Source: Limonium bicolor (Eukaryota > Streptophyta > Magnoliopsida > Caryophyllales > Plumbaginaceae). From it: 64,000 bases of DNA. The first letter of the stretch is position 1, and every line of letters starts with the position of its first letter. Below the pieces are notes generated by a model, which saw only the letters and a program-made list of their open reading frames with translations, did no database searches and was not told the origin of the DNA. The DNA lies in assembly GCA_023374045.1 (NCBI GenBank), contig CM041776.1, positions 41,980,171-42,044,170 on the forward strand, read 5' to 3'. The position numbers and the translations under genes are program-made. This document shows positions 10,573 through 64,000 of this stretch, one piece after another.

Positions 10573-10594
10573 AACCGCCTCTTAAGAGGCGGTT
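10573..10594. repeat. 22-bp perfect palindrome in 5' LTR
   Basis: The arms AACCGCCTCTT and AAGAGGCGGTT are exact reverse complements with no loop. The palindrome is conserved in the 3' LTR at 16440-16461. Confidence 0.95.
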
Positions 10595-10781: not shown

Positions 10782-10790
10782 TATAAATAC
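10782..10790 (+). promoter_or_regulatory. TATA box of Athila B 5' LTR
   Basis: tataaatac lies about 190 bp after the palindrome, and transcription would start some 30 bp downstream. The 3' LTR reads tataatac here (about 16647), having lost one A. Confidence 0.6.
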
Positions 10791-15966: not shown

Positions 15967-17620
15967 TGATAAGTGTCAAAATGAGCATGTTTTATAGGTG
16001 TATTTTATATAATATTAGCACTTTTCCTGCTCATTTCTCCACTTCGGTTAACTTTCCTCTAGTTTATGTTTTATTGTTTATCTCACAAAATTATTGGTTA
16101 ACATGAGGAAAACCAAGACGGGAGTGAAGTAGACGGAGAGACGAACGCGTAGACACAAACGGCTCAGAAAACAGAGTCTAAACGAAGAATCTAGAGCCGG
16201 TCGAAGTTCGTAGAACGAAATAAGTCACGGTCAGCAAGAACAGCACTGCAACCTAAGTGGCGGACTGCAACCGCCTACTAGCTGGCGGACCTCTCACAGC
16301 TGCAACCGCCTACTAGCTGGCGGACCTCTCACGGCTGCAACCGCCTACTAGCTGGCGGTCTCTCACGGGTGCAACCGCCCCGTAACTGGCGGACAGCACA
16401 CACAACCGCGAGGCGGAACCGGGGTGGACAACAACAAGAAACCGCCTCTTAAGAGGCGGTTAAGACTAAAATCAACGACCGGACTAGTTTCTTCTTCGCG
16501 CAGTCGTCGTCTTCAACTTCAATCGCCATACTATCTACTCCGCACCGCCTACCATATTTCCCTCACGCACTCAGCTCCTGTCCCCTACAATTAATGCTTC
16601 AATCAATGAAGCAAATATCTACATACGACTACCTCTTAATTTCTTCTATAATACCCATTCCCTACAGCCTTGTACGAGTGCACGGAGAAAACCTGAAAAT
16701 CACTCACACTCACCTCATCTCATTCTATTCTAGTAAATCGCTCCCGTATACCATTTCACTCCATTAATTCTCTAATTCACCCACTTCACTTATAATAGCC
16801 TTCGTACATGTTTCACTCTTCGACCTCTCCATTTCTCCATTCACTAATCACGTCTCCGTGCTGTTATTACGTCCACCTGTCAGATTTATTACCATTAATG
16901 TCTGGCTAAGGAGGATTTGCTCCGGGCAAGGTTTTAAATTATGGTTTGTTTAATTATGTAATCAATATTTCTACCGGTTTAAATAAATACAGTTTGTTAC
17001 GCTTAAAGGTTTTCTCTCACCATTTTAATAAATTACATGAATTTATTAAAATGCTTTCCTAAGTCTATTTTGATCAGACCAGGTGATAAATAGACAGGTT
17101 ATTTAAGCCGTAAATCTGGAGAAAACTTATTATGATTTAATAAGTTAGTATTTACAGATGCAATTATAATTCCTTGAATTTAACGTCCGTTTTCATAGTA
17201 TTGCTCGAACCTTGATTAGACCGAGCATTTTCTGGTAAGCGAGTTCTTAAGGGTCTATGACTTAGTCCTTAGGATAACAGGAATTTGCCAAACTAATATA
17301 TTTAACCGGTAGAGATAGCATAATTAATCAGATTATATAAAACCTGAACCCGGAGTTCCATTTAATTCATCTGCACTCAGTAATTTAATCTGCTCTTTTA
17401 TTTTCTCTAAAAAAAACAAGTCAATTAACTTCCCCCCTTTTGTGACAAGCTTAGGAACTATTTTAGCTCGCTATAAGTCCCACGGTTTGACCCCGGCCGC
17501 TTCTGTCTTCTATACTACTGCGACCGGGTTTTAATTTGCAGCCCGACGGATATTTTGAGTATTAATTTCTTTCTTTTAACTACCACCTCTTCTAATCACT
17601 CACGATAAATCCGTTCTGCA
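15967..17620 (+). repeat. 3' LTR of Athila B
   Basis: It runs from TGATAAGTGTC to TTCTGCA and is the same length as the 5' LTR by my count. Its tandem 35-bp repeats are at about 16267-16400 and its palindrome is at 16440-16461. Confidence 0.92.
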
Positions 17621-33200: not shown

Positions 33201-33553
33201 TAAGGTGTAATCATGGGCATTTAGCCACTCAAAACTCATTTCTAAGACAATTTCTCAAAAAAGTGATTTAAGGAGTCTTAAAGCACATTTTGTGTTTAAG
33301 CTTGTTTTTGAGCTTGGTTTTCTTTGGTAATTGAATTAACATGTCCATTATCATGTTACTAAGGTCTTATAATGATGTTTGGTGCTAATCAAAGTCACTC
33401 CAAGCTTAGAGCACATTTTTGCTTAAATTGCCCTTATGGCGTTTTCTTGTGTTTTCCTTGGTTTAAATTGTCTACCAATCTTTCTAAGGCATGATTTAGC
33501 CTTATTACATCATAACTTGATGTTTACTTAGCATACTTAGGTTTGGGGTTTCA
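27239..33553 (-). mobile_element. Solo chromovirus LTR with TSD TAGGG
   Basis: On the minus strand it runs from TGAAACCCCAAACC at 33553 to GGGGTGTTACA ending at 27239. The target duplication TAGGG is perfect (27234-27238 and 33554-33558). Without the inner insertion it is about 4.5 kb. There is no internal sequence, so it is a solo LTR left by recombination between two LTRs. It holds a GC-rich palindromic patch (29105-29210: ggaccgcccctctggggagg and gacctctccacaggggcggt). Confidence 0.88.
29441..31219 (-). mobile_element. Solo Tat-type LTR with TSD GACCT
   Basis: On the minus strand it starts TGTTATACCCAAAATTTTGA at 31219 and ends CGAGGCTCACA at 29441. The target duplication GACCT is perfect (29436-29440 and 31220-31224). 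It belongs to the same family as the LTRs at 45175 and 52732. It carries the clustered GTCCGTGG/CCACGGAC motifs at 29870-30125, a TATA-like ctatataagg on the minus strand near 30710, and a GA microsatellite at 30620-30640. Confidence 0.92.
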
Positions 33554-35426
33554 TAGGGTATAGGAATGGACGGCCGAGATTAAAACGTGGAAAGATTATG
33601 ATGTTTTAAGTTAGTTTAAATTACAGGAAAATACTCTAACTTGATAGATTAATTTGATAACCTTCCCTAATGTATTTTGACACAACATTTTAACCATAGA
33701 TTCCTTATACAATCTATTTTATTTCGATGTAAATTAATATGGGTTTTGAGTTTTTAAGCGAAAGTTATAATTTTTGTAAGTTCTGAGTATTATGGAATTA
33801 TTTAGATAATTTAAAAAGATATTTTTATGAAATAAAAATTTTATAATATGTCCAAAATATTATAGTTACTATATATTAAATTTGGGGATTTTTAGACAAG
33901 AGAAAATAGGTCTGAAAATTGTAATTCTGAATTTTTCCTAAGATATATTATAATATGGTTTTAATGTAAACAAAAATTAAAGTATAGTTGATTAATAATT
34001 TTCATAGGTTGGGAATAATATAAGAACACTAAATTAACATTTAATACAGAATGTTAATAAATATCTTTAGGTATTAACTTTTTAAGTCAAGTAAAATATA
34101 TATATATTATATATATGTGTAAAAGAAATAAAATAGTAACTTAGGTTAAAACAAGGAGTTAAATTAATCTACACTTATATTACTTAAATACTATAGAAGC
34201 TAATATACTACAATGAAACAAAAGAAATACTTTATAAAACATATATTGAATGTGGATATATGTAGAATTTAATAGAAATAGTTTAAATACAATAAGCTAC
34301 ATAAAGGATGACTTAAATAAATTCTAATACATGTACATGCATATGTATTAAAATAAATAAGGGGAATACATACCTCATGGAAAATGTAATAAGAGGGGAA
34401 AAATTCGAGTAGACCTAGTTCATACACAACAATCAAAACATTAAATGTTAGTTGACATGTAGATAGACTATTAGGAGAAATATAGATCCTAAACCTTAGT
34501 CATGTATTAAAGTAAAACTAATCCACTTTTACTTAAGAGCTTAATTAAGTTAACCCTATGACTAAGAGTAGGTGATCGAAATAAAATTAAATGTACCCTC
34601 AAGACATACAAATTCAATGGCGTATATGGTCAAGTCAAACCTAGAATTAAATCGAGGTTTCACGTTTGAAACCTCACAAGCTCTTTTTAGGAAGTTTCAT
34701 CAACTAACGAAAAGGTAAACGCGGACTTGGGCCATCCTACTGGGCCTAAGTCCATGATCTCCAAAAAATCCCACTTAAACAATTCAACGAGAGTTTGGGC
34801 CACTCTCGGGATAAATCCTAAATCATTCCAGATTAAATGAAATGGGCCTAACAAAAGATTTAATTAACAAAATCTAGCCCAAATCTTTGTGGGAGAATAA
34901 TGGTAAACCTGAAACTATAATGAGTAAGAATTGAAGATGTTTAGTTTGTAAGTTCCTTAACTAATCAATACTTGGAACACCTTAATTATAGGTTATTAGT
35001 GGGGGATCACTCATTCGAGTTAGTTACTACTTCTTCACATACCAGGTATGATTTCTCGTACTCAGATACTTTTGCTAACAGACTTTATGGAATGTTTTGG
35101 AAAACGCTAACTGACATTGAATGGTTTTCAAAAGGAAAATGTTTGTGTGACTAACTAAGCTTGATGTGACTAACTGAGCCTTGAATGTACAACTCACATG
35201 ATCATTGGTTCCTCTTATCTGGTTGTCTCATTAGATATTAACTGCTGAGGGTTTACGCCTCTGCACTCTGTAGGACTGAGTGTTTTGGTATTGCACTCGT
35301 GCAGTTATTAATCTAGTGGGAATATGGGAAATGTCAATCTTGGTAAATTCTTCTTCTGACGTTGGATATCGTTTCATCCATGAGCTGAGTCTTTGTTATG
35401 ACGTGCGCGCGTCTTCTCCAGTAACA

Positions 35427-35634
35427 GCAAAGGGTTGTATATCCCTTATCCAAAAAGGAGGTGTATGACAGTAGGGGGTTGTATATCCCTCGTCCATATG
35501 GACATTTATATCTGGCGGTCGTGAATAACTGCAAAGGGTTGTATATCCCTTGTCCAAAAAGGAGGTGTATGACAGTAGGGGGTTGTATATCCCTCGTCCA
35601 TATGGACATTTATATCTGGCGGTGGGGGCCATCT
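35427..35634. repeat. 104-bp tandem duplication in chromovirus LTR
   Basis: gcaaagggttgtatatccct starts at 35427 and again at 35531, with nearly identical following sequence. Each unit contains gggttgtatatccct twice, giving four copies of a near-palindromic motif. Confidence 0.9.
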
Positions 35635-36263: not shown

Positions 36264-36800
36264 TGTTATGTGTTGTTGTTGCTATGCAATGTTCATTGCT
36301 ATGCTTATGTATGTTGTATGTTAAATTAATGTCATGTTATCATGACAATTAGTTGCGTGTATCTTGGTAGCCTACGGGCTGCACGTTTATCATACCAGCA
36401 AAGGGTTGTTGAGCCCCTTTGGGGCACCATATTTTTGAATGAGGATCGAGGAAGCAGAGTGGCTTTAGATTCTAAGTACGATGAATACTTTTGTTAGCTT
36501 TTGGATAGTGAACCCGAGTTGTGCCTGTGCACTTGTGGATGTTTATACAGTTGATGGAGTTAGACTGAAGTGATGTTTGTATATATACACTCGGTATAGT
36601 TGGTTTGTAAGTAATGGGATGTTAGTAACTAATGCTCGGGAGTTTGTGTCCATCAGACCGATACATTTGTACGTATTTAGCCTTGTTAGCCACGTGGGTG
36701 GCTAACGGCGTGTAACACTGTCCCGTTTTGGCTAATGTTTATGTTATCAGTTTCCGCTGTGATTGTTGCTTATTGTTAAGTTTACAGTTGGGGTGTTACA
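36264..36800 (+). repeat. 3' end of another chromovirus LTR
   Basis: It ends GGGGTGTTACA at 36800. It shares the ccagcaaagggttgttgagc, cccctttggggcacc, catcagaccgata and gccttgttagccacgtgggt blocks with the LTR ends at 55910-56386 and, inverted, at 27239-27680 and 57007-57430. Its left end is missing. It abuts E1 gag with no primer-binding site. Confidence 0.75.
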
Positions 36801-37509
36801 ATAGCAACATACTACCTCAAAGATGCTGCTATGGATTGGTGGAAGCTAGTGAAGCATGAGTATGTTGATGACCCCTCATTTGATTGGGAATCTTTCACCG
36901 TAATTCTCCGATCAAAGTACTACCCCGAACACGTCAAAACCAAGAAGCGTTTAGAGCTTGACGCCTTGAGGATGACAGAAAAGATGTCAGTGGATGAGTA
37001 CTACCGCACCTTCACCTCCATTCTACGTCTCCTATCCAACCTTCGGTACACCGGCCAGGTCTTGGTCGATCGCTTCTATGGCGGTCTGAGCCATCTCCTT
37101 CGGTACGGTATGAGGTACACCCGATTTACCTCCCTTCAGGTAAACGTTGGTTCGAACCCTTAATGCCATTGTCAATATTTAAATCATTACCGTAATGAGC
37201 AAGAGCATCACCTAATACCTGAAACTTCAGGAGTGCTATCACGCTACATCTCGCATGGAAATCACTTGTCAGCTAAGAGATGAGGAGCAGGCGCTTAAGC
37301 GCAAAGCCAATAGCAAGAACACTAGCTCAGAGGAGCAGAACTAGGGCAAGAGCTGGAAGAAGAAGTAGGGGAAATTCTTTCAACAATCACAGAAGAACAC
37401 CCCAGTGAGAGCAGTGCCCATGCTGAGAAGGGAAAAGCAGTTGAGGCACTTCAGCTAGCTTACTCTGCGCTGGTGGCCGCAAAGCCACTGAGATCACACC
37501 CGCCCAAGG
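36801..37509 (+). pseudogene. Gag exon 1 of E1 (capsid part, truncated)
   Basis: The open part includes MDWWKLVKHEYVDDPSFDWE (36831 on) and KYYPEHVKTKKRLELDAL, typical of Ty3/gypsy capsid. The N-terminus is lost at the junction with the LTR at 36800. A stop follows near 37160 and TAG codons near 37343 and 37367. The exon ends EKGKAVEALQLAYSALVAAK (from about 37424) and PLRSHPPK, matching the equivalent Gag segment of E2, and then a splice donor. Confidence 0.8.
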
Positions 37510-37595
37510 GTAAAACTCCTAAATTTAAACTCGTATATGTGTAAATACAATAATTAATATCACCGCACCAATTGTGCTAACACTCAAAGCCACAG
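37510..37595 (+). other. Putative gag intron 1 of E1 (86 bp, phase 1)
   Basis: The donor is AAGG/GTAAAA and the acceptor GCCACAG/GTTCT, with a branch point TGCTAAC about 20 bp upstream. The retained frame meets a stop inside the intron. Removal joins PPKG to SSSGYG in frame. E2 has an intron at the same place and in the same phase. Confidence 0.65.
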
Positions 37596-37937
37596 GTTCT
37601 AGCTCCGGATATGGCAAGAACTACTCTGACGGTAGCTATGTTTATAGAAAGTGCAACCAAGATCACCCCGGCATAGATTGCCAAGGTAGAGAAATCTGGT
37701 GCTTCAACTGTCGGAAACCAGGGCACCGTGCTAATGTATGCCCGGAGAGCTCGAAGCCTAAGGGCAACTACCAGGGCTACAAGCAGAAGGAAGGCAAGGA
37801 GGTTGTATATGGCAATGCTCCAGCCCAGCAGGCCTCGCAGGGTCAGGGGTCCCGAGGTCCTCAGAAGGGCGCACCGCAGAGGCAGCCGGCCTTGCACATT
37901 ATTGACCGTGACGGGACCGGTACTAAGTCAGGCCTAG
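37596..37937 (+). pseudogene. Gag exon 2 of E1 (zinc knuckles)
   Basis: This is the nucleic-acid-binding end of Gag. A degenerate knuckle (CNQDHPGIDC) precedes a canonical CCHC knuckle, CFNCRKPGHRANVC, near 37700-37745. A basic, Gln-rich tail follows, ending LHIIDRDGTGTKSGL. The exon is fully open. Its end, CTAG/GTATTG, is a phase-1 splice donor. Reading through gives a stop (IDYNP then stop) within the next 20 bases or so. Confidence 0.8.
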
Positions 37938-38093
37938 GTATTGACTATAACCCTTAATCCTTGAAAAGCATGTCTAAGTATCGAAGTACTTGTTTGAATG
38001 AATGTATGAGTAAGTAGAGTTGAAGTACGTATTTGAGCATGAAATGAACAAGTTGAAACTAGAACTCACGGTAGATAAAATTTACAACCATAG
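37938..38093 (+). other. Putative intron 2 of E1 (gag to AlkB, 156 bp, phase 1)
   Basis: The donor is CTAG/GTATTG and the acceptor ACCATAG/GTAGAT. The same donor is also in phase with the protease acceptor at 38975/38976, so skipping the AlkB exon would give Gag-Pol. Confidence 0.55.
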
Positions 38094-38833
38094 GTAGATT
38101 TAATATCTGCTACCCGATACCTTCAAACCCAAACCATGAAGACGACGACATCATCACTCACCATTTCTCCAACGAACAGTGTCAGGTTATCGACCAGGTA
38201 TGATTTTATTAAAAGGATACCTGACACCGGAAGCACAAATTTCCATCATCTGACGATGCAACGAACTAGGAGAGGGTCCAGGAGGATTTTACACACTCGA
38301 ATTCCCCGGTGGAGCGAAAATAAAGCTGAAGATGATGTGCTTGGGAGAGGATTGGAATCCTTATACCAGGACATACCAAAAGACACGAACGCAAGACGGA
38401 GCGACACCACCAACAATACCCACTGAGTTCCAGATGCTTGTTACACAAGCTGTAGAACTTGCACAACAATGTGAATATGATCCAATCCCCGCACTTGGAG
38501 TGGATCTTTGTATCGTCAACTTCTATGAGAAAGAAGGACGACTTGGGTTACACCACGATAAGGACGAGACAACGGAATCTTTTGAACAAGGAGTGCCCGT
38601 AGTGTCTTGGTCCATTAGTAATGACGTTGTATATTCGTATAGCGAGCAAGAAGCGTGTGGACCTCGCAGAGAAACTGGTATTGAGATCAGGAGATGTCCT
38701 AATCATCGGTGGAAAACCAAGGTTGCTGTATCACGGGATCAATAAGATCAAGTTGAATACGGCACCACCGGTAATAATCAATGCCACACACATGAAACCA
38801 GGATGCTTGAACCTTACCTTTAAGAAGTATTAA
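38094..38833 (+). pseudogene. AlkB/ALKBH1-like 2-oxoglutarate dioxygenase exon in E1
   Basis: AlkB proteins use Fe(II) and 2-oxoglutarate to remove methyl groups from nucleic acids oxidatively. After a short linker (RFNICYPIPS) the domain reads MILLKGYLTPEAQ, GPGGFYTLEFPGGAKIKLKM, LCIVNFYEKEGRLGL, HHDKD (38551-38565; iron ligands His and Asp), SGDVLIIGG, LLYHGI (third iron ligand, His at 38732) and CLNLTFKKY, then TAA (38831). This is the complete fold and most resembles plant ALKBH1. Lesions are a 1-base deletion near 38190, TGA at 38251 and a 1-base insertion near 38649. Both arginines of the 2-oxoglutarate motif RxxxxxR are replaced (Cys at 38804, Lys at 38822). It lies between Gag and protease. 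Confidence 0.87.
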
Positions 38834-38975
38834 TCTTGTAGTAGCATGCAACATATTAGTAACGTTATTAGAGACACGGTGTGTATGATGGTTGGTTTAT
38901 CAATAAAGAGCAGTGTTGATTATTAAATTCCACTTGTGTCCTACCATCATTACTTACAAACTTGTGAATCAATAG
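38834..38975 (+). other. Spacer between AlkB stop and protease acceptor, E1
   Basis: 142 bp, noncoding, ending in a 3' splice-site-like GAATCAATAG/GT. The equivalent spacer in E2 is 156 bp and ends GAATAATTAG/GT. Confidence 0.55.
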
Positions 38976-39414
38976 GTTATGGACTCGGTAACGAAGGTAA
39001 CCTGAGTATCCTCACCAAAGCACAAGTCGGTAAGAGCGGTACCATCTTAACGGGAACCTTCCCGGTAAACGGCATTGATGCCTCCATACTATTTGACTCT
39101 GGCGCCTCTCATACCTTTGTTTCACAATTATTTTCGAAGAGGTTGGGGCTGGACGTAGATGAGCTACAAAACTTCTTGGTTACTCTCCCGTCGAAGGAGC
39201 GAGTACGATGTACCAAATATTATGAAGCTGCCACGATCCGAATCAAGGGCGAAGAGTTTCCCATCTCCTTCATCGAATTTAATGGGTTGGGATTCGACTT
39301 GATAGTCGGGATGAACTGGTTGGAGCAGCATAAGGGGCGAATTCTCTGCGCTGAGCATAGACTGCTGCTCAAGAGTCCGTCTGGGGTTACTGTTTCGTAC
39401 CGCCAGTGAGAGAG
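38976..39414 (+). pseudogene. Retroviral-type aspartic protease of E1
   Basis: It opens (G)YGLGNEGNLSILTKAQ. The catalytic motif ILFDSGASHTFVS is near 39090-39125, and the flap and second hydrophobic strand (FDLIVGMNWLEQHKGRILC) are near 39294-39350. The protease would process the Gag-Pol polyprotein. The open frame runs to VSYRQ and a TGA at about 39407. No start codon is needed if it is reached by splicing from Gag. Confidence 0.88.
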
Positions 39415-40480
39415 CCTTTGACTACAGTCATCTCCGCTATGGCTATGTACCGGGAGCTCGGAAAGGGGTACGACGTGTATCTATGTTATGTACAAGATCT
39501 GGAGAGAGATCCATAATTCAGTGTCGATGTGCTAGTTGTGCCAGAATTTCCAAATGTGTTCCTGAAAGAGCTACCTGGTATGCCACCTCAGAGAGCTGTT
39601 GAGTTTGAGATCGATCTCGTACCGGGTACTGGTCCCATTGCCAGGGCACCATACCGTATGACACCTGCAGAAATGACTGAGCTTAAGGAACAATTGCGTG
39701 ACCTTCTCGACAAAGGGTTTATACGCCCGAGCGTATCACCCTGGGGAGCACCGGTCCTCTTCGTGAAGAAGAAGGACGGTAGCCTCCGACTCTGCATCGA
39801 CTACCGTGAATTGAATGCGATCACTGTAAAGAATAAGTATCCATTGCCGCGCATCAACGATCTGTTCGATCAGTTGAAGGAGCTTCAGTCTTCTCCAAGA
39901 TTGACCTCCGATCAAGGTATCACCAGATTGCTATCAGAGAGCAGGATATTGAGAAAATGGCATCCGTACAAGATACGGTCACTACGAATTCACAGTCATG
40001 CCATTTCTGGTTTCTCGACGCACAAGCTAGTTCATGGATTTGATGAAACCGGCTATTCAGTGAGCAGTTAGACACTTCTGTATTAGTAGTCTTCATCGAC
40101 GATATCCTTGTTTACACAAAATCCAGAGATGAGCAAGAACCACCTCAGGAAGTACTTGAGACACTGCACGAGAAACAGTTGTATGCGAAGTTCTCTCCAA
40201 ATGCGAGTTTTGGCTAGATCAGGTATCTTTCCTCGGTCATGTCACTCGATCACGGGTATTTCAGTTGATCTGTCCAAAATTGAAGCAGTACGATCATGGC
40301 CTAGACCGAAGACTATTACTGACATCCAGAGCTTTCTTGGTCTAGCCAGTTATTACCGGAGGTTTGTAAAGGACTTCTCTAAAGTTGCTAAGCCCATGAC
40401 AACATTGATGAAGAAAGATGCACCGTTTTGTGGACAAACGAGTGTGAGGTATCCTTCCAGAGCCTAAAAGACTCATTGAC
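39415..40480 (+). pseudogene. Reverse transcriptase of E1 (frameshifted)
   Basis: From 39529 the frame is open for 180 codons with [36 protein letters not shown] and [11 protein letters not shown]. After a break near 39890 the catalytic [12 protein letters not shown] appears near 40090-40125, both aspartates intact. Then comes the connection region, RSWPRPKTITDIQSFLGLAS (near 40290-40350), and [16 protein letters not shown]. It would copy the element's RNA into DNA. Several frame changes at 39890-40260 inactivate it. Confidence 0.88.
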
Positions 40481-40880
40481 CTCAGCGCACATTCCCACTC
40501 TTCCAAAGGGCATAGAGGGATTTGAGGAATACTGTGATGCATCAGGCAAGGGCATGGGATGCGTACTCATGCAGCATGGCTAGGTAGTAGCTTACGCCTC
40601 CCGCCAGCTGAAAAAGCATGAGAGAATTACCCGACACACGATCTAGAGTTAGAAGCCATTGTCTTCGCCTTGAAGATATGATGACGCTATCTCTACGGGG
40701 TAAGCATCACCATCTACTCCGACCACAAAAGTTTACAATTTCACACAGAAGGAACTGAATTTAAGACAGAGAAGTGGATGGAGTTTCTCATCAGATTACT
40801 ACATCGACCTACAGTATAAAGAAGGGAAGGCAACGTTGTAGCCAACCCTGAGCCGTCGAGCACACTCGCTCCATTCGCTA
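40481..40880 (+). pseudogene. RNase H of E1 (degenerate)
   Basis: [17 protein letters not shown] (40530-40580), [12 protein letters not shown] (40588-40622) and [11 protein letters not shown] (about 40739-40771) identify the domain. Stops and frameshifts are frequent, including TAG in the QHG-VVAYAS stretch and a disrupted TDHKSL motif. Confidence 0.8.
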
Positions 40881-42240
40881 CTCGCTTCTTCTAGCTTGGT
40901 TGATGAGGTGTGAGACGCGCAGTTGAGCGACCCTTATATGACCAATATTAGACAGAAAATCACAGAAGGCACATTCGAGAAAAGGAAGTATGACTTCAAA
41001 CTGCATGAAGATGGTCTGGTCCAGCTGAATGGTAGGCTATGCGTTCCCCGAAGAAATGGTGAGCTAAGGGATTGTATCCTGCGAGAGTCACACTGTTCTA
41101 CACTATCTGCCCATCGGAGAGCCTCCAAGATGTACAAAGACATGAAGAGGTACTTCTGGTGGTCAGGGATGAAATCCGACGTGACTGAGTATGTCCTGAG
41201 ATGCCTTACGTGCCAGAAAGTAAAATTTGAGCATAGAAGACCGGGTGGAATGTTACAATCTATGTCAATCCCGGAGTGGAAATTCCATGATATCTCCATG
41301 GATTTTGTTGTAGAACTCCCACCTGCCAGGGGAGGACTCAACATGATCTGGGTAGTAGTTGATCGCCTCACCAAGGTTGCCCGATTCATACCGATGAAGG
41401 ACACCTAGAAGGTGGTGAAACTCGCAGAGTTATTCATCAAGGAGATTATCCGACATCACGGAGTCCCGAAGACTATCGTATTTGACTACGACACCAGGTT
41501 TCTTTCGAGATACTGGAGAGCTACACGGGAAGCGCTGGGTACCGAATTGAAGCTTAGTACCGCCTTTCATCCACAAACTGACGGTCAGACAGAAAGAACC
41601 ATCCAGACACTCGAGGACATGCTAGAGCATGTGCCTTAGACTTTCAGGGGAACTGGATAGATAAGCTTCATCTTATCGAATTTTCATATAATAACAGTTA
41701 TCACGCTTCGATTAAGATGTCGCCTTTCCAAGCTTTATACGGTAGACATTGCCGTACCCCGTTGTATTGGGATGAGTCGGGTGAAGTGGTCATCATAGGA
41801 CCAGAGTATCTCGAGCAAGTACAAGCGGAAGTTCAGCAAATCCGAGCTAATATGAAAGCAGCCCAAGATAGATAGAAATCCTACGCGGATGTGAGACTAC
41901 GAGACCTTGAGTTCGCTGTGGGCGACCAGGTGTTCTTGCACGTTTCACCTATGAAGGGCGTAATCCAATTTGGCCAGAAGGGCAAGCTAAGCCCAAAATA
42001 TGTAGGGCCATACACCATCGCTGAGAGAGTTGGATCTGTAGCCTACAGGTTAGCTTTACCTGGGGAGTTGGGGCGTGTCCATGATGTCTTTCATGTGTCA
42101 CAACTCAAGAAGTACATTGCTGATCCTTCTTATGTTCTAGAGCATGAGCAATTATCCATTGAGCCGACGATAAGATACGTCAAGACTCTCGTGAGAATCC
42201 TTGATACTAAGACTAGAGACACTCGCCATAAGTCAGTGTG
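40881..42240 (+). pseudogene. Integrase of E1 with GPY/F module
   Basis: The zinc-binding HHCC region includes HCSTLSAHRRASKMYKDM and CLTCQKVKFEH (41089-41235). The core has the first Asp in DISMDFVVELPPARGGLNMI (from 41288), the second in VFDYDTRFLSRYW (41480-41515) and Glu in HPQTDGQTERTIQTLEDML (41570-41625). The C-terminal part has VGDQVFLHVSPM, GKLSPKYVGPYTIAERVGSV and HDVFHVSQLKKYI (41918-42120). TAG codons at about 41407 and 41637 and TGA at 42239 interrupt it. Confidence 0.9.
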
Positions 42241-42340
42241 AATGGTGAAGGTCTTATTGTCCAACCACAATGTCAAAGAAGCGATGTGGGAGTTAGAAGA
42301 CGACATGAAGGTGAAGTACCCACAGTTGTTTATAGACTAG
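42241..42340 (+). pseudogene. Chromodomain end of E1 integrase
   Basis: After the TGA at 42239 the same frame continues MVKVLLSNHNVKEAMWELED and KYPQLF, then stops at 42338. The pattern (VKVLW-x-NH-x-VEEATWE) is the chromodomain at the integrase C-terminus of chromoviruses, thought to steer integration to chromatin marks. E2 has the same segment at 59000-59110. Confidence 0.8.
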
Positions 42341-45174: not shown

Positions 45175-46930
45175 TGTTATACCCAAAATTTTGGCCCCCC
45201 CTGGTTAGGGTCTGTAAGGCTTTGGTGTTGTGAGAGGCAACCAATCAAGTAATGAGGGATTCCGGCTCGATCGGCACATTCCGGGACATGGGGAGCAGTT
45301 TCGTCATCGTTAGGGGCGTTTTCGTAATTTTTAAGGCACCCAAGACCTCCTATAGGCTTTCTCTCTCCTCCAAAAGATGCTAAAATCAACTTGAAATGCT
45401 TTGAAATTTTAGCCCATAATAGAGGATGACATTTTAAGCATAATGGCATTGGAATTTTGATTTTTCAAATTTCCAATAATTTTCTAGCAATTTTCGATTG
45501 AATCTGACAAGAAATTGAATTTAAAAACATTCCAACATTTACAAAATTCGATTCCACTTCAGAAAAATCATAATTCCCATCCTTGACACATGGCTAAAAT
45601 TTTGCAGCAAAATTCCTTTGGGAAGTCACTTAATTAAAATGCCAAAAAATGTCACTTTTACTAGATTTTCTTTATCTTTAAGAAAGTCAATATAAAGGGA
45701 TAAATCTTTTGATCAAATGAGAATCTCACAAGCTCAAGAACCCTTGGAAGTCAGAAAGCATAGCCTCCCCTCTCTCTCACATTTTTCAACACCCGGCCAC
45801 CCGAATCATACCGAAATTCACCCAAAATCACCATCTAAGTTCGTTTTCCAATTCCGAAAGCATCAACAATCATCAAAACCCCACATAAACACCACCAAAA
45901 CGTGAAGAACAGCAAGAACAACCAACAACCAGAAGCTTGGTTCGAAAATCTTTCGGGTCTGCCATCAACGGAGCACTCGATGAATCCCGGTGTGAAGGAT
46001 CATTGTAAACCCGAAGGTAAAACAAGTAGAAATTCCACTTTCCTAACTCCCTACGACCTTATCAGTCTTGCCTCAAATTTGGGTTCAAACCAACTCTTTT
46101 CGGCCTCTATATTACTAATTGTTTTAGCTATTGCCTTGTTACTTGTTAGCTAAGTTTCATATTAATTTTGACTTCAAATTGAATTCTTTCAATTACTAAT
46201 GTGCTTATAATCTTTCAAGCTACGTACCCATAAAATTTGAGTCGAAAACACCATCGGGAACCACCAAAAAACCCTGTCTGTGGGTGGTCCGTGACCTCGG
46301 ACCTATGGTCCGGACCATAGACGGGTTATCCGTGGCCACGGACACCCACGGACGGCGGTGGGATTTTTCAAATTTCAAAATGTTCGGGCCCACGGACAGC
46401 TGTCTGTGGCCCCAAACTTTTCAAAATTTCGTTTTCTCTTAAATTCAACTTTTCTGTATAACTAGGTTAACCGGGGTCCGTGGTCTCGGACATGGGGTCC
46501 GTGGCTATGGACGTAAATACAATTTGACCTAGTTCTGCCTCCGAAACCCTAGTTTAGGTATTTTTAGTTTCCACTTTATTTTCTGTCAAAAAAGTTAAAA
46601 ATCAAAAAAAAAAGAAGCGTTGCACTTAGGTTAAAAAACGACTCGTAATAAGCCATAATTAAACTAATAGAGGAAAAATGACTTCTAGGGGTAATGAAAG
46701 TATTGAACCCTAATTAAGTCGAATATCAAGCCCCCAAACCCGAAACTCTCCTTTCTATTGATCAAGGTAAAATTAGGTGGCGACTCATAATATGTTCCAG
46801 TGAGCTAGCTTAGGTTTTAGCAATTAATGTTAACTGACTTAGTTATCAATCTTAGGTATAAGTGGACCTAAACCGACTAGACCTAATCAATCTAAATCAA
46901 CATAGGATAGGGTTTAAAATCGAGCTCACA
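45175..46930 (+). repeat. 5' LTR of element F
   Basis: It starts TGTTATACCCAAAATTTTGG and ends CGAGCTCACA. A TATA-like tataaagg is at 45691. Clustered GTCCGTGG/CCACGGAC motifs lie at 46275-46512, including the perfect palindrome TCCGTGGCCACGGA near 46329. Confidence 0.92.
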
Positions 46931-52731: not shown

Positions 52732-54443
52732 TGTTATACCTAAAATGTTGACCCCCCCTGGTTAGGGTCTATAAGGCTTTGGTGTTGTGAGAGGCACTCC
52801 AATCAAGTAATGATGGATTCCGGCTCAATCGGCACATTCCGAGACATGGGAGCAGTTTCGTCATCGTTAGGGGCATTTTCGTAATTTTTAAGGCTTCCAA
52901 GACCTCCTATAGGCTTTCTCTGAAATGCTTTGAAATTTTATCCCATGATAGAGGATGACATTTTAAGCATAATGGCATTGGAATTTTGATTTTTCGAATT
53001 TCCAATAATTTTCTAGCAATTTTTGACTGAATCTGACAAGAAATTGAATTTGAAAACATTCCAACATTTTAAAAATTCGATTCCACTTCAGAAACATCAT
53101 AATTGCCATCCTTGACACATGGCTAAAATTTCACAGCAAAATTCCTTTGGGAAGTCACTTAATTAAAATGCCAAAAAATCTCACTTTTACTAGATTTTCT
53201 TTATCTTTAAGAAAGTCTATATAAAGGGATATATCTAGAGAATCTCACAAGCTCAAGAACCCTAGGAAGTCAGAAAGCATAGCATCCCCTCTCTCTCTCT
53301 CTCTCACGTTTTTCAACACGTGGCCACCCGAATCACCGAAATTCACCCAAAATCACTATCTAAGTTCGTTTTCCAATTCCCAAAGCATCAACAATCATCA
53401 AAACCCCACATAAACACCACCAAAACGTGAAGAACAGCAAGAAAAACCAACAACAAGAAGCTTGGTTCGTATCCCGGTGTGAAGGATCATTGTAAACCCA
53501 AAGGTAAAACAGGTAGAAATTCCACTTTCCTAACTCCCTACGACCTTATCAGTCTTGCCTCAAATTTGGGTTCAAACCAACTCTTTTTGGCCTCTGTATT
53601 ACTAATTGTTTTAGCTACTGCCTTGTTACTTGTTTGCTAAGTTTCGTATTAATTTTGACTTCAAATTGAATTCTTTCAATTACTAACGTGCTTATAATCT
53701 TTCAGGCTACGTACCCATAAAATTTGAGCCGAAAACACCGTCGGGAACCACCAGAAAACCCCTATCCGTGGGTGGTCCGTGACCTCGGACCTATGGTCCG
53801 GACCACGGACGGGTTGTCCGTGGCCACGACACCTACGGACGGGCGGGATTTTTAAAATTTCAAATTTTAGGTTCTTCTAAATAATGTCCGGGCCCACGGA
53901 CAGTGTCCGTGGCCCCGAACTTTTCAAAATTTCGTTTTCTCTTAAATTCAACTTTTATGTATAACTAGGTTAACCGGGGTCCGTGGTCTCGGACATGGGG
54001 TCCATGGCTACGGACGTAAATAAAATTTGACCTAATTCTGCCTTCGAAACCCTAGTTTAGGTATTTTTAGTTTCCACTTTAATTTTCTGTCAAAAAATGT
54101 TAAAAATAATAAAAAATCAGAAGCACGCACTTAGGTTAAAAACGACTCGTATTAAGCAGTAATTAAACTAAGTAGAGGAAAAACGACTTCTAGGGGTAAT
54201 GAAAGTAATTGAACCCTAATTAAGTCGAATATTAAGCCCCCGAACCCGATATCTCCTTTCCTAATTTGATCTAGGTAAAAATTAGGTGGCGACTCATAAT
54301 AGGTTCCAATGAGCTAGCATAGGTTTTAATAATTAATGTTATATGACATAGTTATTAATCTTAGGTTATAAGTGGACCTAAACCCGACTAGATCCTAGTC
54401 AATCTAATCAACAAAGGATAGGGTTTAAAAATCGAGGCTCACA
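52732..54443 (+). repeat. 3' LTR of element F
   Basis: It starts TGTTATACCTAAAATG and ends CGAGGCTCACA. Compared with the 5' LTR it lacks about 30 bp near 52920 and about 40 bp near 53469. The TATA-like box tatataaagg is near 53218. The GC motif cluster is at 53760-54020. Confidence 0.92.
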
Positions 54444-57006: not shown

Positions 57007-58772
57007 TGTAACACCCCGTCCTAAGCTAATCGTGGTTATCGCAAACTTAACAACTTAAACATAAACGTCGCAGCGGAATTAAACCAACACCAGGACCTTG
57101 CCACGGTCTGAACAACAGAACATACCGAACTTTAGACATTTACAACCGCTAATCCAAAATATACATACCAACCAAGTTTATAGTATATCAAGTATCATCA
57201 TAAATGACATAATTCCCCACGAGTTTAAACATTAACGGACGGGTGCACACGTGCATCCCGTACCCAAATATGAAACCCATCCTAAGGCTAACCACCCTAC
57301 TCTCATGATGAGTCTTCATAGGGCGCTTACCTGCAAAATGCAAACAACATCCACCGAGGGGGTCAGCACCTTTGCTGGTACGATTCTCTTATAGCCCCCA
57401 AGCTAACGGGGCTACGACGACTAATTGTCGATTGCATGGAGATTGGTTAAATACATACATAAGTAGGAAGACATTTACCTTGTTCTTTTACAAGCTCCAC
57501 ACTTTTCTCTTTAGGTTTCCCTTGTTTGACTTTCGGCCACCAATTAAATTTTCCTTTCCAATGTTCTAAGCAATATACAATGACTCTCATGAGTGCCAAA
57601 TAATACACTAACCTTAAGGAATCATGCCTAGGTTAAAAATGTGTTTTAAGGTATAAAATGAATATTTACCTTTGAAGTCTTAACTTAAGCTTGGAAATGA
57701 ATCAAGAAGGACCTCCTCTAGTCCTTGGAGAATGGAAACAAGCTAGAAAAAGGGTAAAACATGTTCCCATTGAGAAGGTAATTTTCGGTCAAGAAGGAAA
57801 AATGGTGGAAAGGTGATTTTTCTTACATTTTCCTTACCTTAAGAGAATAGAGAAGCTAATGAAGTCTTCAAGCTTGTTTTTTTCTTTTAATGGCGGTTTG
57901 CCTTGGCACCAAAATGGAGCTTTTGATATTTGGAAAGATAGAAAGCAAGAGCTTGAGCTAACTAAGAGAACTATGTGCTTGGTTTTCATTTTGGAGCTAA
58001 AATGAGCAAGTTATAGGCAAAGCAAGATGAAGCAAGAATGGGGGCTGGTTCTCACGGTTTTAGAGGATGAAGAAGGTGAAGAAAAACGTGGAAGAAGAGA
58101 ATGAATGAAGAAGAGGAGAGAAGGTAGGCTTAAAGGTAAAATTTTCTTTTAAAAAGCAAATAGTACTATTACAAGTTTTCTTCTTCTTTTCCTTAATATG
58201 CTAGCTCATGTGGTTATTCACCACTACAAAAACCGGCCCCCTTCTTAATTTTAAGATATTTGTGGTCTTGGTTGACCAACTAATTGACTTATGTTGACTT
58301 AATGCTAAACTAGTCTTATTTGGGCACTATTCACAAATTAGTGCACATATTTTGAAATTTTTGATTTCCCATTGATTTAGACTTCCTAATGTGATACTAA
58401 GTAGTAAAAAAGTTGATTAAGGATTAATAATGGGCATTTAGCCACATAAAACCCCTTTCTAAGACAATTTTTCAAAAATGTGCTTTAAGGGTCTTTAAAG
58501 CACAATTTGTGTTTTAACTTGTTTTTGAGCTTGGTTTTCTTTGGTAATTGATTTAACATGACCATTAGGATGTTAATAAGGTCTAATAATGATATTTGGG
58601 TGTAACCCAAGTTACTCCAAGCTTAGAGCACATTTTTGCTTAAATTGCTCTTATGGTGTTTCCTTGTGTTTTCTTTGGTTTAAATTGTTTCCTAATGTTT
58701 ATAAGGCATTATTTAGCCTTATTATATCTTAGTTTATCATTTAAACACCTTATCTAGGTTTGGGGTATTTCA
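57007..58772 (-). repeat. 3' LTR of E2 with a large internal deletion
   Basis: On the minus strand it starts TGAAATACCCCAAACC at 58772 and ends GGGGTGTTACA at 57007. It is only 1766 bp. Sequence matching 27239-27720 is joined near 57460 to sequence matching about 32260-33553, so the middle of the LTR is missing compared with the about 4.5-kb solo copy. The end block with gtcagcacctttgctggtac and gcccccaagctaacggggct is well conserved. Confidence 0.85.
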
Positions 58773-58999: not shown

Positions 59000-59110
59000 C
59001 TAGTCAGTAATTAACGAGGGGTACTTCAATCTCATCTTATCCTCTAATTCCTACGTGGCCTCTTCGACATCCTGGTTAGACCAGAGAACCTTCACCAGTC
59101 GCACTGACTT
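59000..59110 (-). pseudogene. Chromodomain end of E2 integrase
   Basis: On the minus strand it reads LVKVLWSNQDVEEAT, then TAG in place of the conserved Trp, then ELEDKMRLKYPSL and a stop at 59000. The single nonsense change interrupts an otherwise conserved chromodomain tail. Confidence 0.8.
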
Positions 59111-60470
59111 ATGGCGAGTGTCCCTAGTCTTACTATCTAAGATTCTTTGAGGAATCTCCACTGATCTCATATTCGGTTATAACGTCAACCTCTCAGGCTC
59201 TAACACATGGGAGGGGTGGTGCATGTATTTCTTTAGCTGTGAAACATGAAAAACATCATGCACTTTACCCAAGCTCAACGGGCAAATTTAGCCTGTAAGC
59301 AACTGGGCCCACCCGCTCCGTAATCTCATAAGGACCAACAAAGTTCGATCTCAATTTGTCCTTCTACCCAAATCTAAACACACCCTTCATCGGTGAGACT
59401 CACGGACATACCCGGTCGCCCACTACGAACTCCAGGTCTTGTCGTCGCACATCAGCATACGACTTCTGCCTATCTTGAGCAGCTTTCATATTCTCCCTGA
59501 TTTGCTGAACCTCAGTCTGAACTTGCTCTAAGTATTCTGGTCCTATAATGACTGTCTCACTCGACTCATCCCAGCAGAGCGGTGTACGACATGGTCTACC
59601 GTACAATGCTTGGAAAGGCGCCATCTTGATCGAAGCGTGATAGTTATTGTTGTATGAAAACTCGATCAGATGCAACTTGTCAATCCAACTGCCCTCGAAG
59701 TCCAAGGCACATGCTCTCAGCATGTCCTCGAGTGTATGAATTGTACGCTCAGTCTAACCATCTGTCTGAGGATGGAACATGGTACTCAACTTCAATTCCG
59801 TACCCAACGCTTCCTGTGTAGCTCTCCAGTACCTTGAAAGGAATCTGGTATCTCTATCTGACACTATGGTCTTTGGTATCCCGTGGTGTTTCATGATTTC
59901 CCTCTCAAACAACTTAGATAACTTAGTTACCTTCCAAGTATCCTTCATCGTATGAATTGGGCTACTTTGGTAAGGCGATCCACCACAACCCATATCATGT
60001 TCAGACCTCCCCTGGCAGGAAGAGTCCGACCACGAAGCCATGAGATATCATGAAACTTCCACTCCGGAACTGGCATTGACTGTACCATTCCACCTGGTCG
60101 TCAGTGCTCCAATTTTACCTTCTGGCATGTGAGACACCTCAAAACGAACTCGGTAACATCTGTCTTCATCCCCGACCACCAGAAGTATCTCGTCATGTCT
60201 TTATACATCTTAGAGGCTCCCAGAATGAAAACTGAAGAACAGTGTGATTCTTTAAGTATACGGTTTTTCAGATCTGTGCTGCCTCGTGGTATGCATAACT
60301 GGCCCTTAAGTCTGATCAGATCATCATCATGAAGTCTGAAGTCGTATTTCTGACTCTCAAAGGTACCCTCTGTCAACTTCTGTCTGACTTCCCTCATATA
60401 CTCATCGGTCCTCTGAGCCTCTCGCACCTCATCAACCAAGCTTAAGAAAGAAACTAGCGAATGGAGTGAG
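59111..60470 (-). pseudogene. Integrase of E2
   Basis: The zinc-binding region is 60101-60439, with HCSSVFILGASKMYKDM and CLTCQKVKLEH. The core continues at 59754-60041, with IVSDRDTRFLSRYWRATQEA (second Asp) and LSTMFHPQTDG. The last core segment and C-terminus follow at 59400-59723, with LHLIEFSYNNNYHASIKMAP and DLEFVVGDRVC. A stop sits in place of Gln after HPQTDG, and the frame changes near 60045. Confidence 0.88.
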
Positions 60471-60880
60471 TGTGCTCGACAGCTCAGGGCGTCAGCTACA
60501 ACATTGGCCTTCCCTTCTTTGTATTAGAGGTCAATATCACAGTCCTTCAAAAATTCTAACCACCTCCTCTGTCGAAGATTCAACTCCTTCTGAGTGAATA
60601 CATATTTCAAGCTCTTGTGATCGGTGTAGATCGTCACACTAACCCCGTACAAGTAGTGGCACCATATCTTCAAAGCGAAGACTACAGCTCCCAACTCCAA
60701 GTCATGAGTGGGATAGTTCTCCTCATGTTTCTTCAGCTGGCGTGAGGCATATGCCACCACCTTGCCATGCTGCATGAGCACGCAACCTAGCCCTCTGCTG
60801 GGTGCATCACAATATACCTCAAAGCCCTCCGTACCGTTTGGAATAGTCAGAACCGGCGTAGTGGTCAGTGAGTTCTTCAA
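60471..60880 (-). pseudogene. RNase H of E2
   Basis: It continues the reverse transcriptase frame with [18 protein letters not shown] (Asp), [15 protein letters not shown] (Glu) and [20 protein letters not shown] (Asp), so the catalytic acids are present. A stop at 60524 interrupts DIDLxYKEGKANVVADALS. Confidence 0.88.
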
Positions 60881-61937
60881 ACTCTGAAACAAAGTCTCAC
60901 AATCAGCCGTCCATACGAACAGTGCATCTTTCTTCATCAGACTAGTCATCGGCTTCGCGACCTTGCTGAAATCCCTAACAAACCTCCGATAGTAACCCGC
61001 CAAACCAAGAAAGCTCCAAATGTCGGTAACTATCTTCGGTCTCGGCCAGGTACGCACCGCATCAACCTTTATTGGATCCACTGAGATCCCAGCATCTGAG
61101 ATGACATGACCCAGGAAAGAGACCTGGTCAAGCCAAAACTCACACTTGAAGAACTTAGCGTAAAGCCGGTTCTCCCTCGGTATCTCTAACACCCTCCTCA
61201 AATGTTCCTCATGCTCAGCTCTCGATTTCGAATATATCAATATGTTGTCGATGAACACCACAACCGACTTGTCCAACTGTTCCCAGAACAAGCGGTTCAA
61301 CAGATCCATAAACTTTGCCAATGTGTTCGACAAACCAAACGGCATCACTGTAAATTCATAGTGGCCATATCGTGTCCGGAATGCCGTATTCTCAATATCT
61401 CCCTCCTTAATGGCTATCCGATGATACCCCGATCTGAGATCAATCTTGGAAATACGGATGCCCCCTACAACTGATCGAACAGATCATCAATGCGGGGTAG
61501 TGGGTACTTATTCTTCACAGTCACTGCATCAACTCTCTGTAGTCGATGTAGCAGAGACTACCATCCTTCTTCTTCATGAAGAGAACTGGCGCTCCCCATG
61601 GTGACACACTCGGTCTTATGAATCCTTTGTCTAGCAAATCTTTCAACTGATCTTTTAACACATTCATTTCTGCCGGAGCCATGCAATATGGTGCCTTAGC
61701 TATCGGTCCGGTTCCAGGTAGCAGCTCGATGGTGAACTCTACCTCCCGAGTGGGTGGCAAGCCGGGCAGTTCCCGTGGAAAGAGATCGAGGAACTCCGAC
61801 ACTACCGGTAAGTCGGGGTCAAACTCGGGGTCCCTCTCTATGTCCTGGACATAGCAGAGATATACTTCTTCCTTCCTCCTCAGTTCCTTATACATTGTCA
61901 TAGCGGAGATGATCTTGGTCGAAGGCTCTCTGGGCCT
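60881..61937 (-). pseudogene. Reverse transcriptase of E2
   Basis: The N-terminal part, 61521-61901, has [40 protein letters not shown] and YIDYREL. The C-terminal part, up to 61348, has [20 protein letters not shown], the active-site segment [14 protein letters not shown], and [10 protein letters not shown]. The active site reads FIDN rather than FIDD: the second catalytic Asp is Asn (codon 61244-61246). A frame break separates the halves near 61350-61520. Confidence 0.88.
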
Positions 61938-62368
61938 CTAGCGGTATGATATTGTTACCCCAGACGGACTCCTGAGCAGCAGTCGATGCTCGGCGCAGAG
62001 GATACGACCTTTGTGCCGCTCCAACCAGTTCATCCCGAAGATAACATCAAATCCCAACTCCCTGAACTCAATAAAATTGACTGGAAAGTCTTCCCCTTTA
62101 ATTCTAATGATGGCTCCTCGGTAGTAGCGAGTGCAATGAACCTTCTCCTTAGACGGGAGTGTAACCGTAAAGTCGGGTAGCTCATCAGCGTCTAGCCCCA
62201 ACCTTCTCACAAACGATGACGAGATAAAGGTATGCGAGGCCCCTGAGTCAAAGAGAACAGATGCCTCAATCCCATTAATCGGAAAGGTGTCGGTGAGGAT
62301 AGTACCGCTTGCGTCGGCCTGTGCCTCTGTAAGTATGCTTAGCGCACTTTCCGTACCGAGTCCATAAC
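61938..62368 (-). pseudogene. Aspartic protease of E2
   Basis: The exon begins at the acceptor ATTAG/GTTATGG (62369/62368) and reads (G)YGLGTESALSILTEAQ, then SVLFDSGASHTF with the catalytic Asp-Ser-Gly near 62245. It ends GMNWLERHKGRILCAEHRL and TISYR, with a TAG at 61938. It is open throughout and colinear with E1. Confidence 0.88.
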
Positions 62369-62524
62369 CTAATTATTCACAAGCTTCATGAGTAATGATG
62401 GTATAACAAGAGTCGTAACAATTAATATGAACAACACTGTTATTTTATTCATAACCATCCTGTTTACATCATGTGCTTCTTTCTTACATCTCATTCCTTA
62501 CATCATTCTTAAAACATTACATGG
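62369..62524 (-). other. Spacer between AlkB stop and protease acceptor, E2
   Basis: 156 bp, noncoding, with the AlkB stop at one end and a 3' splice-site-like sequence at the other. Confidence 0.55.
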
Positions 62525-63264
62525 CTAATATTGTCTAAAGGTTAGGTTTAACCGTCCTGGTCTCATATGCGTCGCATTAATTACAGCTGACGGTGTTGTA
62601 TTCAGCTTAATTCTCTTAATCCCATGGTATAACATTCTTGATGCTCCTCCCATAACTAATACATCTCCAGACTTAAGTATTAACTTATTAGCACGGTCTG
62701 CACGCTTCTGCTCGCCGTACAAAAATTCAGCGTCGTCTCCAATGAACTAAGACACTACGGGTATCCCTCTTTCGAGAGACTCCGTTGTCTTGTCCTTATC
62801 CTGGTGTAGTCCGAGTCGCCAGTCTTTCTCGTAGAAATTCACAATGCAGATGTCTGCTTTTATGTCTGGAATCGGGTCAGCTTCCAATTGCTGAGCGATC
62901 TCCACGACTTGTGTAATAACCGGATGGAACTCTTCGGGTATTCTCGGTGGTGAGACTCCATCTTGTGCTCTCGTGGTTTGGTACGTCTTGGCATACGGAT
63001 TCCAATCCTTGCCTAAGCTCATCATCTTTAATTTCATCCTTGCTCCTCCTGGGTACTCCGGTGTATAGAAACCTCCCGGTCCCACTCCTAACTGACTGCA
63101 TCTTCTGATGATGGCTATTTGCGCGTCGGGTGTCAGGTATTCCCTTAATAAAATCATACCTGGGCGGATAACCTGACATTGTTTGGTTGGAAAGTCTCGG
63201 GTTTCGATGTCGGTCTCTTCCGGGTTTAGTGTTGAAGGTATGGGATAGCAAATGTTGAAGTTTC
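62525..63264 (-). pseudogene. AlkB/ALKBH1-like 2-oxoglutarate dioxygenase exon in E2 (one nonsense codon)
   Basis: This exon has about 246 codons. After NFNICYPIPS and a linker, the domain reads VIRPGMILLREYLTPDAQ, LGVGPGGFYTPEYPGGARMK, LKMMSLGKDWNPY, ADICIVNFYEKDWRLGL and HQDKD (iron ligands His 62804-62806 and Asp 62798-62800). It continues with SGDVLVMGG, LYHGIKRIK (third iron ligand His 62624-62626) and RPGRLNLTFRQY, whose RLNLTFR carries both 2-oxoglutarate arginines (62552-62554, 62534-62536), then TAG. All catalytic positions visible to me are kept. The only lesion is TAG at 62747-62749, where E1 has Trp (TGG). It resembles plant ALKBH1, enzymes acting on methylated DNA or RNA. It sits between Gag knuckles and protease on the same strand. 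Confidence 0.92.
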
Positions 63265-63396
63265 CTAAGGTGGTAATAGGTTATATCTCTCTTAAATTCT
63301 CATCTTGTCTTAATCTTATCTAACTTAATTATTCACCCAAGCATGCATAAAATGCGGTAAGCAGAAATTTTATCACTAAATGGTTTATGGCGGTAC
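63265..63396 (-). other. Putative intron 2 of E2 (gag to AlkB, 132 bp, phase 1)
   Basis: The donor is GGCCAG/GTACCG and the acceptor ACCACCTTAG/GAAACT. Position and phase match E1. The donor phase also fits the protease acceptor at 62369/62368. Confidence 0.55.
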
Positions 63397-63737
63397 CTGG
63401 CCTTGACGAGGGTTCAGCCTCATCGTCCCGGTCCACCAGGTGTAGAGAGGGTCCTGGCTTCTAGACTACTCTAGGGTTCTTATTTGCTGCAGGCTGTGTC
63501 GCCTTCTAACCGCCGGATCCAGTGCCATGATCGGTCCTAGCCTTGCCCTTGAAACCGAGCCTGAAATTCTTGCTCTCCGGGTTCCCATAGCACTCATAGG
63601 CTCGGTGCCCGAACACACCACGAAATTACACTCCACCTTGTTACCCTTACAGTTAAGCCCGGGGTGGTCCTTGTGACACCGCTGACAATAGTAGTGTCAT
63701 TGGTAGCCACCACCGGCTTCCTTCCCAGTCTCAATAC
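63397..63737 (-). pseudogene. Gag exon 2 of E2 (zinc knuckles)
   Basis: It reads ETGKEAGGGYQ, a TGA, then YYCQRCHKDHPGLNC (a CX2CX3HX4C knuckle) and a second knuckle broken by a small frame change (CNF, then a shifted GTEPMSAMG stretch near 63590-63640). The end, LHLVDRDDEAEPSSRPG, aligns with LHIIDRDGTGTKSGLG of E1. Confidence 0.75.
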
Positions 63738-63816
63738 CTGATCACATATGGCATCAGTGATTGTGTCTCAATGTTTGTTCAACCATTCTCGGCTCACTTA
63801 AAATATATTTCCTTAC
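63738..63816 (-). other. Putative gag intron 1 of E2 (79 bp, phase 1)
   Basis: The donor is AAGG/GTAAGG and the acceptor TGTGATCAG/GTATTG, with a CTGAT branch-like motif about 20 bp upstream. Position and phase match E1. Confidence 0.65.
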
Positions 63817-64000
63817 CCTTTGGCGCCTTTGAGCGCAAGGGTTTAGCAGCGATTGCATAGGTCAACTTCAGTGGCTCTTCAACAGCCTTCTCAGTTTCCA
63901 TCTTATTCTTATGACCTTTCTGGGCCTGAGGCTGGTACTTCTGCTTCTTGTACCTGCCCTGCCCTTGGTTCTCAGCACCTTTACCAGCATTCTTCCTCTT
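63817..64000 (-). pseudogene. Gag exon 1 end of E2 (basic region)
   Basis: On the minus strand it is a Lys/Gln-rich stretch (KRKNAGKGAENQGQGRYKKQ), followed by EKAVEEPLKLTYAIAAKPLR and the donor. The same segment precedes the donor in E1. The rest of gag is outside the window. Confidence 0.75.

Follow-up and report, generated by a model that had tools for sequence, protein, structure and literature searches.

Why should a plant retrotransposon carry an AlkB dioxygenase between its gag and protease regions, and how might such an enzyme be expressed? The question is raised by a locus near the end of a 64,000-nucleotide stretch of Limonium bicolor DNA (hereafter the window). The answer that we favour, and consider probable though far from certain, is that an ALKBH1-type exon lies between gag and protease, that one gag donor splices alternatively to AlkB or pol, and that the resulting Gag–AlkB protein is predicted to carry a demethylase into particles.

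The AlkB exon and its host element

The exon runs from 63264, the first base past a conserved AG acceptor, to 62525, where its stop codon ends. A Pfam profile search matched PF13532 to two pieces of it (E 2.3e-17 and 1.1e-19, 64.3 and 71.9 bits, against a cut-off of 31.2 bits), and an uninterrupted relative, L012, gave the whole domain (E 3.3e-46, 158.4 bits). Comparison of the L012 exon with the PDB returned chain 5xeg first (residues 35–251, E 1.2e-73), which we take to be rice ALKBH1, followed by E. coli-type AlkB and ALKBH1-named chains. Of the 21 PDB matches with E ≤ 0.1, 15 are named AlkB, 5 are named ALKBH1 and none is named ALKBH5, and an ALKBH5-like identity of the kind found in orchid elements was rejected on this ground. 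The database relatives listed with informative names are also of ALKBH1 type, and the assignment to the ALKBH1 subfamily is based on this PDB ranking and these names.

These results bear out the preliminary description, which had recognized an AlkB domain of ALKBH1 type from the letters: the profile match is far above the cut-off, and the iron triad (HQD and the His of YHGI) and the 2-oxoglutarate arginines (RLNLTFR) that it named can all be read in the window copy. Its claim of a full AlkB in one exon stood for the domain and the limits, which are exact, and fell for the reading frame, which a single in-frame stop splits in the window copy (the frames meet at 62746/62747). Since the gag and pol frames are likewise broken, the window copy is not a working element.

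The AlkB exon is flanked on the same strand by zinc-knuckle gag upstream and by Pfam pieces of RVP_2 protease, RT, RNase H and integrase downstream, the arrangement first proposed, and many copies repeat it. The LTRs, primer site, gag and protease–RT–RNase H–integrase order are those of a Ty3/gypsy element, and recovery of the pol domains and the chromodomain region agrees with the chromovirus host that had been named. The zinc knuckle was matched by Pfam in a relative (E 0.0039, just under Pfam's cut-off). The chromodomain, PF00385, was matched in L012 just below the Pfam threshold (E 2.2e-5, 24.7 bits vs. a cut-off of 25.1), and the window copy is 90.7% identical to this better-kept relative in the chromodomain region. 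The C-terminal motif presumably resembles that of Tekay.

The whole element spans about 8.5 kb, and each LTR is about 465 bp long (Table 1). The 5′ LTR falls beyond the window, at what would be 65002–65466, and is followed by the primer site TGGTATCAGAGC, which resembles that for initiator tRNA-Met; intron A and gag exon 1 also lie beyond the window end.

Table 1. Coordinates of the gag–AlkB–pol elements in the window (a slash in a motif marks an exon–intron boundary)
Feature	Position	Strand	Basis or remark
Gag exon 2, truncated by window end	63817..64000	(-)	L028; runs on to about 64063 (C1 coordinates)
Intron B, within gag	63738..63816	(-)	GT-AG
Gag exon 3, zinc knuckle region, phase 1 end	63397..63737	(-)	Relatives' alignments
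Intron, gag exon 3 donor to AlkB acceptor	63265..63396	(-)	CAG/GTACCG donor, CTTAG/GA acceptor; exactly removed in 10 genomic copies
AlkB exon (ALKBH1-like 2OG-Fe(II) oxygenase)	62525..63264	(-)	PF13532, acceptor and stop coordinates
Non-coding stretch, AlkB stop to pol acceptor	62369..62524	(-)	Aligned copies
Pol exon: protease, RT, RNase H, integrase, chromodomain	59003..62368	(-)	Pfam; frames broken in window copy
3′ LTR of window element	57007..57470	(-)	94.9% identity to 5′ partner over 467 columns
Second copy, related gag–AlkB–pol element, older, broken	36780-42337	(+)	Same order, same intron sites; 71.9% DNA identity
Second copy, gag zinc-knuckle region	37529..37937	(+)	Ends at conserved donor, GT at 37938
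Second copy, AlkB exon	38094..38833	(+)	
Second copy, pol	38976..42337	(+)	Conserved acceptor AATAG/GTTATGG; frames broken

Other repeats occur in the window. The stretch from pol to the 3′ LTR (57464–58766) recurs at 32251–33549 and 5420–6123, with 77% and 68% identity. A direct repeat of about 1.66 kb (10100–11755 and 15966–17621, 95.8% identical) may represent the LTRs of another element, as may one of about 1.7 kb (45175–46930 and 52732–54443, 87.8%), of which a third, inverted copy is found at 29441–31219 (about 80%). A 98-base unit is present in two tandem copies, 98% identical, at 35422–35623.

Copies, lineages and selection

At least 150 places in the 2.92 Gb genome, the window included, encode the AlkB exon at 88% identity or more to its first 177 residues. 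By hand count, 118 of 150 among the matches listed contain no stop in the matched part; the search started from 46,581 first-look candidates, and the listed matches are biased towards the window copy. Recurrence on this scale rules out a one-off insertion beside the element, one of the two outcomes named at the start as refuting; the other, a profile search without an AlkB hit, did not occur either.

Twenty loci were fetched, comprising the window copy and 19 others listed as stop-free. The AlkB frame is 251 or 252 aa in all 19 of these others, gag and pol sequence surrounds AlkB in most of the fetched copies, and LTR sequence is present in 19 of the 20 loci, with the primer site exact in 14. 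Four copies (L009, L020, L025 and L026) carry a one-sided rearrangement within the aligned region; in L020 the pol part is foreign past the acceptor, resulting in a long branch in the junction tree described below.

More distant relatives were found with a 67-aa piece of a Cocos ALKBH1, which matched at least 150 places with 48–60% identity and long open frames; among these, a host ALKBH1 gene was not distinguishable from element copies. Two loci from these matches, L051 and L052, are retrotransposon copies with a gag zinc knuckle, an AlkB exon and a protease. Their AlkB is 58% identical to that of L012, and identity to the Cocos protein is 58% for them vs. 49% for L012. Judged by sequence, they are a deeper lineage of AlkB-bearing elements with the same layout and with AlkB frames listed at 252, 259 or 268 aa.

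The element AlkB is about 49–51% identical to the five host ALKBH1 proteins compared. In an AlkB tree of 39 rows (L051 and L052 left out), five rows of the family group at 100/100 with P0001–P0005, AlkB proteins from ENA and one other source, apart from 29 rows that are mostly named plant proteins. P0001–P0005 likely come from similar elements of other species. Two of them, P0002 and P0003 (both ENA), keep LG before the DICYP motif, where the element's acceptor TTAG/G falls, a hint that these too are element-borne. A scan of viral contigs found no relative, and a tblastn search of plasmids gave 4 bacterial records, all below 30% identity.

Residues N148, Y150, H159, D161 and H219 are kept in 18 of 18 copies, and R243 and R249 in 17 of 18 each. 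Across the 153 pairs of these 18 copies, which were chosen stop-free (L028, with a stop, and L024, with 252 aa, were left out here and in the residue table), dN/dS is 0.145 (mean dN 0.045, dS 0.315). Because the copies had been picked in this way, the neutral simulation was made stop-free as well, and it gave a mean dN/dS of 0.68 and a minimum of 0.57. Diversity at AlkB codon positions 1, 2 and 3 is 0.056, 0.040 and 0.171 among 15 copies (L009, L020, L024, L025 and L028 left out). These codon statistics establish purifying selection on the AlkB exon as read from its genomic copies. Many copies are decayed, both window copies included, as would be expected of a passenger, a functionless copy of host ALKBH1 swept along with the element and useful at most as a stop region; but the low dN/dS, the kept cofactor residues and the presence of the exon in divergent lineages make this reading hardly credible.

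Splice sites and intron-less junctions

Gag contains three interruptions whose limits are conserved among the aligned copies: intron A (TTGCAG/GTAAT...AAGCAG/GAGTGC), intron B (AAAGG/GTAAGG...ATCAG/GATCTG) and a third that begins after CCAG/GTACCG. The third donor ends in phase 1, and both the AlkB acceptor (TTAG/GA) and the pol acceptor (AATTAG/GT) match that phase, so that gag can be read in frame into AlkB (RPG/NFNICYP, with its own stop) or into pol (RPG/YGLGTEG). Of 20 aligned copies, 19 have the donor GT, all 20 have the AG of the AlkB acceptor and 19 have that of the pol acceptor. With the third intron retained, Gag stops at most 28 codons on in all 20 copies read.

If the element RNA is spliced, some spliced RNA is expected to have been reverse-transcribed. 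A pattern search of the genome found the exact gag–pol junction at 12 places (7, 2 and 3 with 0, 1 and 2 mismatches) and its gag–AlkB counterpart, likewise exact, at 10 (1, 6 and 3 with 0, 2 and 3 mismatches), compared with 2,033 places for the unspliced donor. All 12 and all 10 are in frame at the junction, several being broken further on; in one copy, L043, an open frame of 449 aa runs from gag exon 2 across the junction and closes at the AlkB stop. Over the compared stretches, identity is 98–99% within three gag–AlkB pairs and one gag–pol pair, each of which may represent a single event, leaving 7 and 11. Reversed-pattern controls for both junctions matched nowhere in the genome, and the donor joined to a false acceptor inside AlkB matched a single place, at 3 mismatches, where the sequence reads as AlkB without a break. 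The word “exon”, used from the outset, thus fits: the flanking GT-AG sites are conserved, and exactly spliced junctions exist elsewhere in the genome. Among the 120 listed of 163 relatives of the L043 fusion frame, none has a gag domain among its Pfam domains, which speaks against the fusion.

The upstream introns vary among these junction copies. Of the gag–pol copies, 7 lack intron A and 4 keep it (1 unscored); 7 lack intron B and 3 keep it (2 unscored). The gag–AlkB copies keep intron A in 7 cases (3 unscored); 3 of them lack intron B, one of these differing by one base, and 6 keep it (1 unscored). Copy L015 lacks intron A exactly (about 3380–3450, oriented) and keeps its AlkB region, which may be another sign of reverse-transcribed spliced RNA. 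For the deeper lineage of L051 and L052 the result is weaker: the gag–AlkB junction pattern had no match, and the gag–pol pattern matched two places with identical letters, 16 kb apart, with 3 mismatches each.

In a tree of 41 copies (L009 dropped), spliced and unspliced copies are mixed, with 7 label changes, at least 4 of them forced by well-supported branches. Spliced copies do not cluster more than label shuffling would produce (values as low arose in 248 and 239 of 500 shuffles), and some form well-supported pairs with unspliced ones, such as L029 with L018 at 100/99.

The scarcity of the junctions, 12 and 10 copies vs. 2,033 unspliced donors, would suit the view that they are ancestral elements without AlkB or the products of chance deletion. 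However, their ends coincide exactly with the GT-AG sites, both junction types occur, presence or absence varies independently for introns A and B, and the false-acceptor control yielded only the uninterrupted AlkB-like place. The copies are also scattered in the tree beside unspliced ones, and a single basal gag–pol clade was not seen. We rejected this view, for the gag–pol copies in particular, as very improbable. The junction copies are instead, by strong inference from their sequences, reverse transcripts of alternatively spliced element RNA. The gene order, the phase-matched GT-AG sites and the occurrence of both exact junctions, gag–AlkB and gag–pol, among scattered copies are established at the level of the genome.

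Predicted products and known systems

Alternative splicing of the element RNA would give three predicted products: Gag, Gag–AlkB and Gag–Pol. RNA that retains the introns very probably yields Gag alone and serves as the usual genome, and splicing, with no need of a frameshift, would keep Gag in excess of Pol. The Gag part, with capsid and zinc knuckle, is predicted to carry AlkB into particles and to the RNA packaged in them; AlkB would be placed behind the zinc knuckle and hence in the particle. There it is predicted to demethylate or dealkylate the genomic RNA or the single-stranded cDNA, which would help the element past host marks or damage. To the full scheme, in which one donor and a retained intron vs. 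two acceptors give the three products and the enzyme is a particle-borne eraser of marks on the packaged genome or cDNA, we give an even chance. If the fusion is real, the place of the enzyme on Gag tells where it works, namely the particle. Both splice forms are preserved in the genome, and control of the Gag : Gag–enzyme : Gag–Pol ratio by splicing is directly testable with plant RNA.

The internal Met at residue 42 of L012, beside the start of the Pfam domain at residue 41, is a possible start, so that fusion need not be the sole route to an AlkB protein. AlkB could then be a free accessory enzyme with its own translation, from this start or from another RNA, acting in the cell on host or element RNA, as is proposed for the orchid protein, which is encoded by a separate ORF and has in vitro m6A demethylase activity (PMC9289625). 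We regard this as unlikely: the coding sequence upstream of the Met is kept and is related to P0002 and P0003, and the AlkB acceptor is conserved in phase and used in ten copies.

As for the substrate of a Gag-borne AlkB, rice ALKBH1 is described as acting on 6mA in unpaired DNA (PMC10469495), an activity that would fit single-stranded cDNA; RNA marks or the m1A of the primer tRNA are alternative substrates. It seems to us doubtful that the real target is the primer tRNA, with packaged AlkB tuning the m1A58 stop in reverse transcription. The primer site is exact in 14 of 20 loci, but primer sites like that of initiator tRNA-Met are common in plant elements without AlkB. According to PMC13191261, m1A58 strongly arrests plus-strand synthesis in retroviruses and ALKBH1 acts on tRNA m1A, but loss of m1A58 reduces HIV-1 infectivity. 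The plant enzyme, moreover, is chiefly known to act on 6mA in unpaired DNA (PMC10469495).

A search of the open-licence PMC literature found no description of a retrotransposon whose AlkB is of ALKBH1 type or is spliced to gag. The closest system is that of Phalaenopsis, where Ogre-type Gypsy elements carry an ALKBH5-like domain that demethylates m6A in vitro and was found in no other plant genome among the 121 screened (PMC9289625). As described there, Gypsy_Pa_2799 resembles the Limonium element as a many-copy plant Ty3/gypsy element with a captured AlkB whose cofactor residues are kept, and as one in which a captured nucleic-acid eraser is proposed to aid the element. The Limonium element nevertheless lies outside the Phalaenopsis AlkB-Gypsy family, differing in AlkB class, ORF position, LTR size and primer site. 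The AlkB of Gypsy_Pa_2799 is ALKBH5-like and forms a separate ORF2 of 565 aa (PMC9289625), whereas that of Limonium is ALKBH1-like and lies between gag and protease; the former element is of the Ogre/Tat lineage, 25.5 kb long with 6.4 kb LTRs, and the latter has a chromodomain, about 8.5 kb and LTRs of about 465 bp. The primer site of Gypsy_Pa_2799 is antisense to tRNA-Arg, that of Limonium is TGGTATCAGAGC; and gag and pol share one ORF in Gypsy_Pa_2799 but are split by introns in Limonium, where AlkB would be reached through an alternative acceptor from the shared gag donor.

Plant LTR elements are generally without introns, Ogre and EVADE being exceptions, and in Ogre and in the short Gag of EVADE/Copia, as is proposed here, splicing gives more than one RNA per element and intron retention alters the Gag product (PMC12786077). 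Neither is described there as splicing gag to a captured enzyme (PMC12786077); the Limonium element has no fewer than three introns, and two acceptors would compete for one gag donor. Relative to plant ALKBH1 (5xeg), the element AlkB has the same fold by sequence and the same metal and 2OG residues, but forms a separate clade, is encoded by an exon without internal intron and is a predicted Gag fusion. AlkB in plant RNA viruses is linked to the replicase, in contrast to the enzyme of Limonium, for which linkage to Gag is predicted. The likeness is that of a mobile RNA-based agent bearing its own AlkB; the AlkB domains of these viruses are described in PMC9289625.

Capture of AlkB by a plant Gypsy element is thus already known from orchids, and the Limonium case, as read from its sequences, differs from it in the class and position of AlkB, in the element and in the predicted mode of expression. 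This suggests that plant retrotransposons have captured an AlkB eraser a second time and independently, with another AlkB class and another element type, in which case the erasing of methylation or alkylation would be a recurrent need of such elements.
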